Shown in pieces: positions 34,445 to 47,060 of a stretch of 47,060 bases of DNA. The notes beneath the pieces are model-generated. The model saw only the letters and a program-made list of their open reading frames with translations. It was not told the origin of the DNA and did not search any database. Position 1 is the first letter of the stretch. Every line of letters starts with the position of its first letter. A program made the position numbers and the translations under genes. This stretch comes from a virus: the IMG/VR virus record IMGVR_UViG_3300020125_000109, positions 1 to 47,060 of that record, one strand, 5' to 3'.

Positions 34445-34601
34445 GCACCCCCTCCTCGTTAAATTCGACCGGGCGGATGCCCCCGTCGTGGGTATCGGGT
34501 CTCCCCTACTCCCACTCCCCGTCATAGGGTTCGCGGCCCCGCGACGGACCCGGCTCTCCCGAATCTTACCACCGTCAGGGTTCTCCGCGCCACAATTTCC
34601 C

Positions 34602-34642
34602 GGCGACTACCCCCCGGCGACTACCCCCCGGCGACTACTCCC
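34602..34642. repeat. Three tandem 14-bp GC-rich repeats
   Basis: The unit GGCGACTACCCCCC occurs at 34602-34615 and 34616-34629, with a third, slightly diverged copy at 34630-34642. The array lies about 160 bases upstream of the small terminase start in a GC-rich stretch (34445-34800) without a convincing gene. Tandem repeats next to terS are a common form of packaging-recognition sites; that role is inferred. Confidence 0.8.
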
Positions 34643-36380: not shown

Positions 36381-36923
36381 ATGAAAATAAAGACGAAAAT
36401 AGAGAAGGTGGTTTCCGAGGACAAAACAAGGCTGGCAATTTGTGAGCCTTTTTTTGACGGGAAAAACCTTTACGCAACGAATGGGCATGTTTTGGCGGTC
36501 ATTCCAGGCGACGAATTGGAAATTGATCCTGAAATGCCGGATTCTCCCGGTTATGTGCCAGTAGCGGCTATCAAAGAAGCCCGGAAGCAAAAAAACTTCT
36601 TTGAAAACCAAGTTCATTGCAACGGCTCGGCAAAGGTAATGGGCACCGGGGCCGAATATCCAAGAAACCCTAATGATTCCAATTTTCCGCAAGCGGCAAT
36701 GGCCGAGGGTTTCGCGCTGGAAGCCTGTCGGAAAAAACACATTACCATTTCCATCAACCCTGAATTGCTGTTTGATCTTGCCCAGGCCTTGGGAATGAAG
36801 GATAAAATAAAGCTGGATATTCCTATTGATGATGACGGAAATCAAGTGAATAGTGGTTTTGAAGTAAGGTCCACGAATTCAAGCACCAAAGCTCATGGGG
36901 TATTGATGCCACTTCATGGATAA
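36381..36923 (+). CDS. DNA polymerase III beta-clamp-like protein
   Basis: The start is set at ATG 36381 because GGGGG lies five bases upstream; ATGs at 36306 and 36312 are possible but without ribosome sites. The 180-residue product has L-Y-A-T-N-G-H-V-L-A-V-I-P (about 31-43), matching the A-T-D-G-H-R-L-A signature of sliding-clamp domains, then V-P-V-A-A-I-K-E-A and a late I-N-P-E-L-L-F-D-L-A-Q-A-L-G. It is about half the length of DnaN. It may mimic or modify the host clamp to draw host polymerase to phage DNA, since no phage polymerase is encoded. Homology is moderate. Confidence 0.55.
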   Translation: MKIKTKIEKVVSEDKTRLAICEPFFDGKNLYATNGHVLAVIPGDELEIDPEMPDSPGYVPVAAIKEARKQKNFFENQVHCNGSAKVMGTGAEYPRNPNDSNFPQAAMAEGFALEACRKKHITISINPELLFDLAQALGMKDKIKLDIPIDDDGNQVNSGFEVRSTNSSTKAHGVLMPLHG

Positions 36924-36930
36924 AAAAAGG
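36917..36930 (+). repeat. 14-base direct repeat beside the ribozymes (copy 1)
   Basis: TGGATAAAAAAAGG at 36917-36930 recurs exactly at 37450-37463. Copy 1 lies just before the twister-like element and includes the stop codon of the clamp-like gene. Copy 2 starts within the last bases of the hammerhead and continues into the next ribosome site. Confidence 0.85.
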
Positions 36931-36937
36931 GCGCAAG

Positions 36938-36985
36938 CCCTTAATGCGGCCAAGGCCGGTTCCAAGCCCGGATAAACGCAGAGGA
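36938..36985 (+). ncRNA. Twister-ribozyme-like element
   Basis: In order the RNA shows UAA (36942-36944, the cleavage position in twisters), P2 UGCG (36945-36948), GCC, AAG, P4 GCCGG (36955-36959), loop UUCC-AAG, CCCGG (36967-36971), AUAAA (36972-36976), P2' CGCA (36977-36980) and GAGGA (36981-36985). This matches, block by block, the published environmental twister whose core reads GCC-AAU-GCCGG-UCCC-AAG-CCCGG-AUAAA. P2 differs in sequence but still pairs, and loop bases UCC (36961-36963) can pair with GGA (36983-36985), the expected tertiary contact. The weak point is stem P1: bases before 36942 do not pair well with those after 36985. It may be weak, permuted or inactive. Confidence 0.7.
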
Positions 36986-37026
36986 TATAACACCGCCGAG
37001 GGGATACTCGGAGAAAGCAGGTAGTT

Positions 37027-37164
37027 ATGACCCACCAGCAAGCAATGGAAACCATCTTGAACGCCGAGCCAAAGGATGACTGGGCAGCGTTCATGTCGGA
37101 GGAAATGGCCCACGAATACGCCTTGGAATGCGCCATGGAACAAGTACTGTCGGGGCGGATATGA
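37027..37164 (+). CDS. Small acidic hypothetical protein (45 aa)
   Basis: ATG at 37027 follows GCAGG, and the frame ends in TGA that overlaps the ATG of the next gene. The protein is helical and acidic (D-D-W-A-A-F-M-S-E-E-M). No family is recognised. It is the first of two small genes between the twister-like element and the hammerhead, so its message could be trimmed at both ends by RNA cleavage. Confidence 0.65.
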   Translation: MTHQQAMETILNAEPKDDWAAFMSEEMAHEYALECAMEQVLSGRI

Positions 37165-37403
37165 AAATACCAGGAACCGAGCGGATCAGCGAGATTTTGC
37201 ACGAGGATTTATCCCAGCTCAACGATGATGCCTCATTTTTGGGCGTAGAACGGTTTCCTAATGAATCCGAGGAATGTTTCCGAACAAGGGTAGCCTACGC
37301 AATGCAAGTACAGTTGGGCGTACCCATCACCGGGAAGATGTTGCTCCGAATGGCCTACTGGAATATGGTAGCGAATGGAGCGGCAGCCCAGCAGATCAAT
37401 TAA
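37161..37403 (+). CDS. Small hypothetical protein
   Basis: ATG at 37161 overlaps the upstream stop (ATGA) and follows GGGGCGG. The 80-residue product is helical and acidic in its first half, with A-M-Q-V-Q-L-G-V-P-I-T-G-K-M-L-L in the second. No family is recognised. Its stop codon directly abuts the first base of hammerhead stem I, so ribosomes finishing this gene would sit on the ribozyme. Confidence 0.68.
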   Translation: MKIPGTERISEILHEDLSQLNDDASFLGVERFPNESEECFRTRVAYAMQVQLGVPITGKMLLRMAYWNMVANGAAAQQIN

Positions 37404-37452
37404 CCAGCCTGACGAGTCCTAATGGACGAAACCGGCGAAAGCCGGTAGCTGG
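37404..37452 (+). ncRNA. Hammerhead ribozyme (type I)
   Basis: All conserved parts are present in order: stem I 5' CCAGC (37404-37408), core CUGACGA (37409-37415), stem II GUCC-UAAU-GGAC (37416-37427), core GAAA (37428-37431), stem III CCGGC-GAAA-GCCGG (37432-37445), UA (37446-37447), stem I 3' GCUGG (37448-37452). All three stems are perfectly paired. Cleavage is expected after A37447 (a GUA site). Both ends leave from stem I, so it is type I. The 3' product would start about 25 bases before the TTG start of the next gene and keep its GGAGG ribosome site. Homology is very strong; activity is untested. Confidence 0.93.
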
Positions 37453-37463
37453 ATAAAAAAAGG
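37450..37463 (+). repeat. 14-base direct repeat beside the ribozymes (copy 2)
   Basis: This is identical to 36917-36930 (TGGATAAAAAAAGG). Here it overlaps the last three bases of the hammerhead and leads into GGAGG. Confidence 0.85.
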
Positions 37464-37472
37464 AGGCGTAAT

Positions 37473-37763
37473 TTGAAAAAGAAACGTTATGTTCTCGTTC
37501 GAACCTATTCGGCTGGCGTTCATGCCGGATATTTCCACAGTCGGAATGGACAAGAGGTGACATTAACCAATACCAGGCGGATTTGGTATTGGGATGGTGC
37601 GGCCTCGTTGTCCCAAATTGCGGTATCGGGAGTTTCGAAACCTCAAAACTGTAAATTTTCAGTGGTTGTGAGCAAAAACGAACTGCTCCAAGCCATTGAG
37701 GTCATGGATTGCACCGAAGAAGCGCGGAAAAACATCGAAAGCGTGTCGTCATGGAAAGCATAA
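37473..37763 (+). CDS. DUF6948-like small phage protein
   Basis: This 96-residue protein starts at TTG 37473, seven bases after AAAGGAGG. It has Y-V-L-V-R-T-Y-S-A-G-V-H-A-G-Y (about 6-20), T-R-R-I-W-Y-W-D-G-A (about 34-43), L-S-Q-I-A-x-x-G-V and C-K-F-S-V-V-V near 60, a pattern shared by many small phage proteins that I know under the label DUF6948. It is probably a compact beta-barrel. Function unknown. It is the first gene after the hammerhead. Confidence 0.78.
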   Translation: MKKKRYVLVRTYSAGVHAGYFHSRNGQEVTLTNTRRIWYWDGAASLSQIAVSGVSKPQNCKFSVVVSKNELLQAIEVMDCTEEARKNIESVSSWKA

Positions 37764-37978
37764 CTTCCGGTTCCGGTTACGGTGACGGTTCCGGTTACGG
37801 TTCCGGTTACGGTGACGGTTACGGTTCCGGTTCCGGTTCCGGTTACGGTTCCGGTTCCGGTTCCGGTTACGGTTCCGGTTCCGGTTCCGGTGACGGTTAC
37901 GGTGACGGTGACGGTGACGGTGACGGTTCCGGTGACGGTGACGGTTACGGTTCCGGTGACGGTTACGGTTACGGTTAA
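37751..37978 (+). CDS. Gly-(Ser/Tyr/Asp) dipeptide-repeat protein
   Basis: ATG at 37751 lies within the end of the previous gene. After five ordinary residues the 75-residue protein is a pure run of 35 Gly-X pairs, X being Ser, Tyr or Asp. In DNA each pair is GGTNNC (six bases). The frame starts and ends with the repeat, supporting translation, though the ribosome site is weak. Gly/Tyr-rich chains of this kind are disordered and can condense or glue. No family is recognised. Repeat number may vary between phages or be collapsed in assembly. Confidence 0.6.
   Translation: MESITSGSGYGDGSGYGSGYGDGYGSGSGSGYGSGSGSGYGSGSGSGDGYGDGDGDGDGSGDGDGYGSGDGYGYG
37767..37975 (+). repeat. Six-base tandem repeat (GGTNNC)
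   Basis: About 35 consecutive units GGTTCC, GGTTAC or GGTGAC. The fixed GGT and final C with only three codon choices point to recent growth by slippage. Confidence 0.9.
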
Positions 37979-37990
37979 AATTCGCTTTAT

Positions 37991-38042
37991 ATCGAGGACA
38001 CGCCTTCGGGCCTGTAAGTCACAATCGCGGTCCAAAGTCCGC
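37991..38042 (+). ncRNA. Possible structured leader (UUCG hairpin plus second hairpin)
   Basis: In the 82-base gap between two repeat genes, GCC-UUCG-GGC (38002-38011) forms a tetraloop hairpin extendable by ACA/UGU, and GCGG (38027-38030) pairs with CCGC (38039-38042). The ribosome site AAGGAGG follows. It could be another regulatory or cleaving RNA but matches no class I can name. Confidence 0.35.
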
Positions 38043-38060: not shown

Positions 38061-38858
38061 ATGCTATACGAATATTCAGAAATCAAAACGTGGCCTTACA
38101 ATGAAAAGGAAGGATGTTTCGAGAAAGGTAAAATCAAAATCTGGATCACGAAATGGTGTATTGAAAACAAGACCATAAGCGACCGGGCCAGTATGGGCGA
38201 AGGGGCCAGTATGGGCGACCGGGCCAGGATGGGCGCATGGGCCAGTATGGGCGAAGGGGCCAGTATGGGCGAAGGGGCCAGGATGGGCGAAGGGGCCAGG
38301 ATGGGCGCATGGGCCAGTATGGGCAAAGGGGCCAGTATGGGCGAAGGGGCCAGTATGGGCAAAGGGGCCAGTATGGGCGAAGGGGCCAGGATGGGCGAAG
38401 GGGCCAGTATGGGCGACCGGGCCAGTATGGGCGAAGGGGCCAGGATGGGCGCATGGGCCAGTATGGGCGAAGGGGCCAGTATGGGCGAAGGGGCCAGGAT
38501 GGGCGCATGGGCCAGTATGGGCAAAGGGGCCAGTATGGGCGAAGGGGCCAGTATGGGCGAAGGGGCCAGTATGGGCGACCGGGCCAGGATGGGCGAAGGG
38601 GCAAAAATTCAACATTGCTTATCTTTTGGCCCCATTGGTTCTCGTTTGGATTACCTTCACTATTTGCCAGAGATAGGTATTTTTTGTACGGGTTGTTTTT
38701 ATGATTCTGAAAAGGTGTTGGTGGCCGCGATCAAAGAGAAACACGAGGGAACCGATTATTTGAAACCTTATTTAGCGGCGGTTAAAGCCTTGAAATTGAT
38801 CGCCACAGCCAAAGGAGTAAAAAGAGTGAAGCAAGCGGAAGGCGTAAAAGTTGGTTAA
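38061..38858 (+). CDS. Hexapeptide-repeat (left-handed beta-helix-like) protein
   Basis: This 265-residue protein starts at ATG 38061 behind AAGGAGG. Residues 1-40 form a Trp-rich head. Residues 41-178 are 23 perfect six-residue repeats of the type x-x-A-(S/R)-M-G, which in phase reads M-G-x-x-A-S, the hexapeptide rule of left-handed beta-helices with Met in the aliphatic place. The C-terminal part (L-S-F-G-P-I-G-S-R-L, then a basic helix) looks like a cap. Three such sides per turn would give a rod of about eight turns. Function is unknown; phages use such rods in adhesins and inhibitors. Confidence 0.8.
   Translation: MLYEYSEIKTWPYNEKEGCFEKGKIKIWITKWCIENKTISDRASMGEGASMGDRARMGAWASMGEGASMGEGARMGEGARMGAWASMGKGASMGEGASMGKGASMGEGARMGEGASMGDRASMGEGARMGAWASMGEGASMGEGARMGAWASMGKGASMGEGASMGEGASMGDRARMGEGAKIQHCLSFGPIGSRLDYLHYLPEIGIFCTGCFYDSEKVLVAAIKEKHEGTDYLKPYLAAVKALKLIATAKGVKRVKQAEGVKVG
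38181..38594 (+). repeat. 18-base tandem repeat, 23 units
   Basis: The unit carries the fixed part GCC-AG(T/G)-ATG-GGC preceded by two codons drawn from GAA-GGG, GAC-CGG, GCA-TGG or AAA-GGG. High DNA identity between units indicates recent duplication. Confidence 0.92.
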
Positions 38859-39204: not shown

Positions 39205-39945
39205 ATGAAAACGAAGTCTGTGAAATCCGAGCCGAGGAAATCCAAGTCCGTATTAGTTCTCAAGTCCGTAAACGCTGACATGACCTCAAAAAATGGATTC
39301 AAGTACCCTGAAAATGGAACGGTGGCCTGTACCGATTGGGAACCTACCCCCGAATGTGGAAATGGATTGCACGGGCTTCTTTGGGGAGAGGGCAATTACA
39401 GCTTGTTGAATTGGACCGCTGATGCAAAATGGCTAGTAATCAAAGTGACCGAGTTCGTGAAGATCGACAACGATAAGGTGAAATTTCCTAGCGGGGTAGT
39501 GGTGTTTTGCGGTGACCGTTTAGGAGCCTGTGATTACATTCGAGCCCATGGAAACAAGGGCTTAAAATTCAGTTTAACGGCAACCGCTGGGAATTATGGC
39601 ACGGCAACCGCTGGGGACGCTGGCACGGCAACCGCTGGGTATAAGGGCACGGCAACCGCTGGGGACGCTGGCACGGCAACCGCTGGGTATAAGGGCACTG
39701 CGACCGCTGGGGACGCTGGCACTGCGACCGCTGGGAAGTATGGCACTGCGACCGCTGGGGACGCTGGCACTGCGACCGCTGGGTATAAGGGCACTGCGCT
39801 TAGTGGTGATTACGGCGCAATTTCCTTAGAAGGCTATGCTAATGGCAATTACTTCAAAGTCGTGTCCGCTGTTGGTGGCAAAAGCACTTTGAAGGCTAAA
39901 ACCAAGTACAAATTGAATGATAATAACGAATTTGTTGAGGCTTAA
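39205..39945 (+). CDS. Octapeptide-repeat protein with conserved N-terminal domain
   Basis: This 246-residue protein starts at ATG 39205 behind AAAGGA. Residues 15-112 form a domain I know from many phage and bacterial proteins of unknown function: G-F-K-Y-P, D-W-E-P-T-P-E-C-G-N-G-L-H-G-L-L-W-G-E-G, then A-K-W-L-V-I-K-V and C-G-D-R. Residues 125-204 are ten copies of an eight-residue repeat T-A-T-A-G-x-x-G, followed by a short cap. Such repeats build flat beta-rolls or helices. Similar two-part proteins are common in phages. Role unknown, possibly binding or host takeover. Confidence 0.78.
   Translation: MKTKSVKSEPRKSKSVLVLKSVNADMTSKNGFKYPENGTVACTDWEPTPECGNGLHGLLWGEGNYSLLNWTADAKWLVIKVTEFVKIDNDKVKFPSGVVVFCGDRLGACDYIRAHGNKGLKFSLTATAGNYGTATAGDAGTATAGYKGTATAGDAGTATAGYKGTATAGDAGTATAGKYGTATAGDAGTATAGYKGTALSGDYGAISLEGYANGNYFKVVSAVGGKSTLKAKTKYKLNDNNEFVEA
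39577..39816 (+). repeat. 24-base tandem repeat, 10 units
   Basis: The unit encodes T-A-T-A-G-x-x-G (x-x being NY, DA, YK or KY; the last copy is diverged). GCAACCGCTGGG and GCGACCGCTGGG variants are clustered, which shows stepwise duplication. Confidence 0.9.
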
Positions 39946-45786: not shown

Positions 45787-47060
45787 ATCCTCCCCGCTTG
45801 AAGTTTCTTGGCCTGACGTGCATCGAACACATGTTTCGCCCACCCATGCGGTCTTTTCATCCCTCGCTTTTTCCCAACTTCTACCAATTCCTCAAACGTG
45901 TACGCCCTGCCTTGCTCCCTGCGCTTCTCTTTCCTCAACCTTTCAATGTCTACTTCTGAGAGTTCACCTTCTTTTTCCGCAACTTCCCGCGCCTTGATCT
46001 TGAAGATCGCTCCACAAAAACGACACGCCGAAACACCCGCATATTGGGCAGCGAAACACTTAGGACATATTCGTATGGATAATCCTTTGGCTTCTTTCTT
46101 TTTCGCATCGGAATGTCCCTCCAAACTCCATTCTCTGTCCTCATCGGGTAGGCCATGGCGCTCACAATTCCCGGCGTGGTCGAGGATCACGACTTCTTTT
46201 TTACCTTCTGATGGCCTTAATCCACGACCCACTTGCTGTAAGTACAACGCCAGGGACAGGGTAGGCCTTAATTGAATCACGCACTCAATTCCCGGAAGAT
46301 CGTAGCCCTCTCCGAACAATTCTACGTTGGACAGAACCAATATTTCCCCCCGCGAGAACCGTTCTGTAGCCCGATCCCTTTCCTCGGTAGGCGTTTCCCC
46401 GTCCACATGGGCCGCTGGCACCCCGGCAGCGTTAAAATCAGCCACCACATGCTTGGAATGCTCCCTAGAGGCGGCGAATACCAATGCCCTCTTGCCAGGG
46501 GCCAGTTTCTTATACTCTTTAATGGCATCCCCTGTTATTGAAGGCTTGTCCATGGCGCTAGATAATTGGGGCTTCGAATACTCTCCCATGACCTTTTTAA
46601 CGCCTGTCAGGTCAACCGTGGAAGGGGCATACAGTTTGTACGGTGCCAAAAACCCATTCTGAATTAGCCATTGAACGGACGGTCCCTTCACCATAACCTC
46701 AAAAAAATCACCAAGCCCTCTCCCATCAAGCCTTTCACTGGTAGCGGTCAGGCCCAATTTAAAAGAATTCGGAAACGCTGCGAAAACTGTTTTCCAGGAT
46801 TGAGCCGGACAATGATGGGCCTCGTCAAACACGGCCAGGTTTGGTTGTTTGAGATACTTAACCCTATTTCGAAGGGTGCCGATGGAGCAGATTTTTACTT
46901 TATGGTTTCGAGTTTCAAAAAAACCATTGGCCAAGACATCAAATTTGATACCCACCATATCGAAGGCGCGAATAACTTGGCCCACCAATTCTCTGCGGTG
47001 TGTCACCCAATAAGCCGACATTCCTTTGTCCTGACAGGTCTTTATCATCTTGGCCGTTAA
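45783..47060 (-). CDS. SF2 (DEAH-type) helicase, main part (gene crosses the join)
   Basis: With the piece at 238-1 this is a 462-residue superfamily 2 helicase. In full-length numbering: Walker A near 30-36, V-F-D-E-A-H-H (DEAH, about 114-120), T-A-T (142-144), the C-terminal helicase lobe with V-F-A-A-S-R-E-H and motif VI Q-V-G-R-G-L-R (313-319), then a zinc ribbon with Cys369, Cys372, Cys383 and Cys386, and a charged helical tail. This build resembles RadD/type III restriction-like phage helicases. It should use ATP to remodel DNA during recombination or replication. Bases 46934-47060 repeat 1-127. Confidence 0.93.
   Translation of the reverse strand, partial: LTAKMIKTCQDKGMSAYWVTHRRELVGQVIRAFDMVGIKFDVLANGFFETRNHKVKICSIGTLRNRVKYLKQPNLAVFDEAHHCPAQSWKTVFAAFPNSFKLGLTATSERLDGRGLGDFFEVMVKGPSVQWLIQNGFLAPYKLYAPSTVDLTGVKKVMGEYSKPQLSSAMDKPSITGDAIKEYKKLAPGKRALVFAASREHSKHVVADFNAAGVPAAHVDGETPTEERDRATERFSRGEILVLSNVELFGEGYDLPGIECVIQLRPTLSLALYLQQVGRGLRPSEGKKEVVILDHAGNCERHGLPDEDREWSLEGHSDAKKKEAKGLSIRICPKCFAAQYAGVSACRFCGAIFKIKAREVAEKEGELSEVDIERLRKEKRREQGRAYTFEELVEVGKKRGMKRPHGWAKHVFDARQAKKLQAGRI
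46934..47060. repeat. Terminal direct repeat (assembly closure), right copy
   Basis: Exact copy of bases 1-127. Remove one copy before any length or map calculation. Confidence 0.95.

Follow-up and report, generated by a model that had tools for sequence, protein, structure and literature searches.

Twister and hammerhead ribozymes as neighbours between the genes of a probable ribozyme-punctuated phage operon

The window, by which we mean the whole stretch of 47,060 nucleotides analysed here (IMG/VR record IMGVR_UViG_3300020125_000109, positions 1 to 47,060), is probably a complete phage genome, since its start is repeated at its end (1-127 and 46934-47060) as a direct terminal repeat of about 127 bases that is exact over the stretch printed. 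Its DNA showed no similarity to any of 50,697 phages, and no close relatives of the operon described below were found. On the + strand a gene of 180 amino acids is followed by a twister ribozyme, two open reading frames (ORFs) that overlap in an ATGA, a type I hammerhead ribozyme, a DUF6948 gene whose end is overlapped by an ORF made of GGT-NNC repeats, a twister-P5-like candidate and a hexapeptide-repeat gene (Table 1).

Table 1. Features of the ribozyme locus, in positions of the window
Feature	Position	Strand	Evidence and remarks
Upstream gene, 180 aa	36381..36923	+	Weakly similar to phrog_947 (phage DNA polymerase processivity factor; E 0.0015) and phrog_3007 (E 9e-5)
Repeat, copy 1	36917..36930	+	Covers the final codons of the upstream gene with the TAA stop (36921-36923), and the hairpin's 5' arm
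Hairpin AAGGGC-GCAA-GCCCUU	36927..36942	+	Its last base is the scissile U; would form the 3' terminus of the mRNA from the upstream gene
Twister ribozyme, type P1 order, P1 unpaired	36938..36989	+	Rfam RF03160 twister-P1, 45.8 bits, E 1e-10 over the whole record
Small ORF 1, 45 aa	37027..37164	+	ORF list
Small ORF 2, 80 aa	37161..37403	+	ATGA overlap with ORF 1; stop codon abuts the hammerhead
Type I hammerhead ribozyme	37404..37452	+	Own phage model R1, 55.7 bits, E 3e-13
Repeat, copy 2	37450..37463	+	Closing bases (3' arm) of hammerhead stem I, then a run of A and the first bases of the next gene's Shine-Dalgarno AAGGAGG
DUF6948 gene, 96 aa, TTG start	37473..37763	+	Pfam PF22253, E 4e-31
GGT-NNC repeat ORF (Gly-Ser/Tyr/Asp)	37751..37978	+	Starts within the DUF6948 gene, near its end; second gene in segment two
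Third ribozyme candidate, twister-P5-like	37991..38042	+	Rfam RF02684, 28.7 bits, E 0.007 in 7.9 kb, 1.6e-4 in 181 bases
Hexapeptide-repeat gene	38061..38858	+	Pfam PF00132; 18 nt past the third ribozyme candidate; SD AAGGAGG

The matches of the 180-aa gene are weak and its function is therefore uncertain, and no relative of it was seen among IMG/VR viral contigs or phages. The same search was empty for the 80-aa ORF 2, which like the 45-aa ORF 1 had no phmmer match in any of the fetched loci either; profile matches gave no relatives of ORF 1. In the leader of ORF 1 (36985-37032) the string UAUAACACC can pair with the start-codon region in a predicted fold that would hide the start, with a z of only -1.5. 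Several genes of this region are rich in repeats. A GGTTCC/GGTTAC/GGTGAC hexamer array at 37767-37978 encodes the Gly-Ser/Tyr/Asp repeats of the ORF at the end of the DUF6948 gene, and two more repeat-rich genes lie close by, one with ASMGEG-type hexapeptide repeats (38180-38600) and one with GTATAGDA-type repeats (39600-39850), both of which are possibly fast-changing through repeat slippage. A short tandem repeat with a period of 14 bases, CCCGGCGACTACCC, is found at 34599-34638.

A search of the whole window with Rfam at gathering thresholds returned nothing, as all three ribozyme-like elements are below the cut-offs, and we therefore used permissive searches and a hammerhead model of our own. 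The twister scores below the gathering score of its family (67.2 bits), and it carries the conserved elements UAAUGC..GC, GGUUCCAAGCCCGGAUAAA and GCAGAGG in the order of the RF03160 alignment. Helices P2 and P4 are paired both in that alignment and in the minimum-energy fold. Helix P1 fails: three of the four P1 pairs of the model are non-standard, and the 5' strand sits in the hairpin that precedes the cut. A strong twister match in another of the fetched loci (L003:1300-1365) likewise fails three P1 pairs, and twisters without P1 can still cut. Since the sequence and P2/P4 fit, we keep the twister call, with a reservation on P1. The predicted cut, U36942^A36943, is 19 nt past the stop codon of the upstream gene. 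With the type-P1 twisters of Rfam the element shares the conserved core, P2, P4, the order of the elements and the intergenic setting in a phage; it differs from them in the unpaired P1 and in the upstream hairpin that ends at the cut, which is absent from the Rfam model.

The hammerhead is complete. Its core, CUGACGA..GAAA..GUA, contains every nucleotide of the consensus (CUGANGA, GAAA and the NUH triplet), and its stems are I CCAGC/GCUGG (5 bp), II GUCC/GGAC (4 bp) and III CCGGC-GAAA-GCCGG (5 bp), of which II and III are closed and I is open, the topology of type I. The minimum-energy fold is exactly this three-way junction (z -5.7), and the descriptor search gave two matches in 150 shuffled windows. 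Model R1, which was built from 53 phage type I hammerheads with the copy in the window excluded, scores the element far higher than Rfam Hammerhead_1 (RF00163) does, at only 14 bits. All core nucleotides, the three stems, the open stem I and the GUA cleavage triplet are those of the Rfam family. The element starts directly after the preceding stop codon, and its predicted cut is A37447^G37448.

The third element looks degraded. An inspection of its alignment to RF02684 found a P1 hairpin (six of seven pairs), P4 and a T1 pseudoknot between GGAC (37996-37999) and GUCC (38030-38033), with P2 essentially unpaired (AUC against GUC, one pair only). We call it a candidate and not a member of twister-P5 because P2 is missing and its score is below the gathering score of 37.6 bits; as P2 is missing, it is possibly inactive. 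Its would-be cut is U38015^A38016. A weak RAGATH-32 match over the same bases (E 0.25) was put down to chance.

In the first-pass annotation the region between 36917 and 37463 had been described as a two-gene cassette, bounded by ribozymes and by identical 14-base edges, that could be gained, lost or circularised. Much of the description is borne out. The string TGGATAAAAAAAGG occurs exactly at both ends and nowhere else in the window, even with two mismatches allowed, and two ribozymes of different classes bracket the pair of small genes, which overlap each other. Beyond the 14 bases the sequences next to the two copies do not agree, so that the similarity stops there. The edges do not stand out from chance. 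When the window was shuffled 100 times with its dinucleotides preserved, 12% of the shuffles had at least one pair of exact 14-mers no more than 700 nt apart, with a mean of 0.2 pairs. The string contains a run of seven A and resembles a stop codon plus a Shine-Dalgarno sequence, and the longer 17-mer TGGATAAAAAAAGGAGG, with which an empty site was sought, is found in 11 IMG/VR stretches with other sequence surroundings, which marks it as a simple A-rich string that recurs by itself. Nor are the two copies equivalent edges, since the twister lies just outside copy 1 whereas copy 2 overlaps stem I of the hammerhead. With such pairs arising in shuffles, the string recurring elsewhere and the two copies doing different jobs, the 14-mers are weak evidence, compatible with chance, and we reject them as the edges of an element.

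A gain or loss of the 533-base interval by recombination between the two 14-mers is conceivable, because removal of one copy together with the interval would leave CATGGATAAAAAAAGGAGGCGTAATTTG, a workable ribozyme-free junction with an intact stop, Shine-Dalgarno sequence and TTG start. That the interval is such a mobile or recombining cassette is nevertheless quite unlikely, given the frequency of equally close pairs in shuffled windows, the independent recurrence of the 17-mer and the lack of a recombinase within the interval. Searches with the upstream gene and the 80-aa ORF in IMG/VR and phages, and with the upstream and small genes in the fetched loci, brought up no relative in which the site is either filled or empty, and the relatives of the DUF6948 gene have other neighbours. 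A discrete module of two genes is not supported either, as another ribozyme candidate comes next and unrelated viral contigs have arrays of 5-11 ribozymes that share the layout of stop, ribozyme, ribosome-binding site and start with different genes.

The predicted cuts of the twister and the hammerhead would free an RNA of 505 nt, in agreement with the size of about 500 bases given for the cassette. Both would leave 5'-OH and 2',3'-cyclic-phosphate ends, a chemistry that is established for twister and hammerhead alike, and such ends could be joined by RtcB-type ligases or by the ribozymes in reverse. Synthetic RNAs flanked by twisters have been circularised via such ends, and self-cleavage at two sites giving ligatable ends, here predicted, is what the locus has in common with viroids, retrozymes and the engineered twister-flanked circles. 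The locus differs from those systems in being a protein-coding operon of a DNA phage, with neither tandem identical ribozymes nor a shared stem that joins the ends. A search of the phage's own genes gave no match to the RtcB or RNA_ligase families. In the one predicted fold of the freed RNA the termini are neither paired nor brought together, and on structural grounds half a twister and half a hammerhead cannot rebuild one active site for self-ligation. The layout is that of an array with further ribozymes, and not of a pair. Circles from clustered phage hammerheads have been looked for and were not detected (PMC3088659). In our view a circular form of the 505-nt RNA, produced by ligation and bearing both small genes, is very unlikely.

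What the locus does share with other viral contigs is the position of its ribozymes. Every ribozyme match in the window starts 1-15 bases after a stop codon, and the cuts of the twister, the hammerhead and the third candidate are placed 84, 25 and 45 nt ahead of the next start. They lie on the coding strand between a stop and the next ribosome-binding site, the arrangement expected of a ribozyme-punctuated operon. A pattern scan of IMG/VR found 77 stretches with a twister, and a hammerhead scan at least 120. A search of 50 of the twister records with both Rfam twister models revealed arrays. One record has eleven twister-P5 matches and two more have nine each, although not all of the weaker matches are certain, and in several viral records with unrelated genes 5-11 twisters fall in 5-10 kb. 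Four viral contigs, L286 (G059), L287 (G063), L291 (G077) and L293 (G080), each have at least eight twisters, all on the same strand and mostly just ahead of a gene. The cut could be located for 87 twisters in 20 fetched regions of viral contigs with twister arrays. Of these, 68 had a stop no more than 110 nt upstream and, no more than 110 nt downstream, a start preceded by a Shine-Dalgarno sequence; the same held for 385 of 1800 random positions (21%), where genes were defined by simple ORF and Shine-Dalgarno rules and not curated. When one twister array was compared by blast with annotated phages, only repeat-protein genes were among the matches listed.

Another viral locus (L001, 1842-4105) has six ribozyme-type matches in 2.3 kb, namely three twister-P5, one twister-P1, one type II hammerhead and one sub-threshold RAGATH-5. 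Among contigs of bacterial genomes the strict twister pattern fitted just two, one from a Clostridia MAG of the sheep rumen (L301) and one from an Acidobacteria MAG (L302); it is possible that they are prophages and give hints of the host groups of twister phages.

Twister and hammerhead occupy the same kind of position between genes. To have them as neighbours is uncommon, as a twister was also present in just 2 of 50 records found by the type I hammerhead pattern, at about 2 kb and about 1 kb from the hammerhead. The genes of the operon had no homolog in the fetched twister or hammerhead stretches. Conversely, the 80 relatives of the DUF6948 gene had no type I hammerhead in the sequence fetched around them, which reached at most 4 kb to either side, twister was absent from 40 records with such relatives, and two of the relatives have type II-like descriptor matches about 2 kb upstream. 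DUF6948 is thus common in viral contigs without twister or type I hammerhead, and the gene and the ribozyme are not a conserved unit.

The hairpin that ends at the twister cut is also found elsewhere. We took 60 type-P1 twisters of phages from the fetched loci, and in 42 of them, the one in the window included, a hairpin of -6 kcal/mol or stronger ends at most 8 nt upstream of the cut, compared with 12.5% of 408 intergenic controls (Fisher p 3e-20). The proportion is 39 of 56 in a non-redundant set, and with random positions as controls it was 37 of 55 against 14%. The distance from hairpin to cut is mostly 0-5 nt, and the strongest hairpins mostly end 0 or 4 nt from it. In type P5 twisters and type I hammerheads a hairpin ahead of the cut is built into their own fold. 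Type I hammerheads outnumber type III by 124 to 23 in viral contigs when both are sought with the same stem II pattern, a count that depends on the descriptor used. No description of a hairpin at the cut was found in the open literature searched, which did not include the main twister discovery papers, and its novelty is uncertain.

The presence of the ribozymes, their strand, order and intergenic position, and their association with hairpins are observed, and from these we infer co-transcription, cleavage activity and an effect on mRNA stability. We hypothesize that the locus is a ribozyme-punctuated phage operon, in which one polycistronic transcript is cut into short mRNAs by ribozymes between the genes, and we find this probable. 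Starting at about 36.3 kb, RNA polymerase would copy the + strand genes into a single RNA. The twister and then the hammerhead, each in the gap that separates a stop codon from the following ribosome-binding site, would cut themselves as they emerge. The products would be the mRNA of the upstream gene, the 505-nt mRNA of the two overlapping small ORFs, an mRNA with the DUF6948 gene and the repeat ORF and, if the third candidate works, one with the hexapeptide gene. Each upstream product would have a stable hairpin near its 3' end, with 0-2 nt and a cyclic phosphate behind it, and each downstream product would open with a 5'-OH leader bearing its own ribosome-binding site. Exonucleases that work from the 3' side should be slowed by the hairpin, and decay from the 5' side by the 5'-OH, and we propose that neighbouring genes can therefore have independent mRNA levels.

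The operon reading rests on two strong matches with intact cores, each of which fits a gap between a stop and a start, and it is supported by the arrays in other viral contigs, by the position of most of their twisters between a stop and a start, by the hairpins that precede the cut in most phage type-P1 twisters, and by the cleavage seen in clustered prophage hammerheads (PMC3088659). It is weakened by a twister without a paired P1 and by a third candidate without P2. The ribozymes could instead be local regulators, each setting the translation of the following gene through cleavage or folding of its leader, without dividing the mRNA. The predicted cuts do sit in the leaders, 25-84 nt before the starts, and the leader of the 45-aa ORF has a fold, if only a weak one, that would cover its start codon. 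The same class of ribozyme, however, precedes many unrelated genes within an array, and a recurrent hairpin on the upstream side suggests a role for the upstream product too, which makes purely local regulation unlikely. A punctuated operon also allows a wider proposal, possible and made tentatively, that many phages use self-cleaving ribozymes of any class to form the 3' ends of their mRNAs and to separate genes, with a hairpin 0-5 nt before the cut that would protect the upstream 3' end, and a downstream mRNA that would receive a 5'-OH leader and its own ribosome-binding site.

Parts of this picture are already known. Perreault et al. (2011) described clustered hammerheads that flank single genes or short gene blocks in prophages, and proposed that transcripts are processed into mRNAs the length of a gene or an operon, with circles mentioned as an alternative; the clustered hammerheads cleave in vitro, and one set from A. 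tumefaciens also in E. coli (PMC3088659). According to a review from 2017, the role of ribozymes in phages and bacteria is still an open question (PMC6155905). Our locus agrees with the earlier clusters in having several self-cleaving ribozymes close together among small variable phage genes, and in the proposed outcome. It differs from them in that a twister and a type I hammerhead, a mixed pair of ribozyme classes, are neighbours. The hairpin rule may be the part that adds something new.

The rule, that phage twisters are placed between a stop codon and a ribosome-binding site and that in most cases a hairpin ending at the cut comes before them, can be tested. If it holds in infected cells, the ribozymes would be a system for mRNA maturation, comparable in purpose to the tRNA punctuation of mitochondria, and such ribozymes would also be useful as parts with which to separate the genes of engineered operons.
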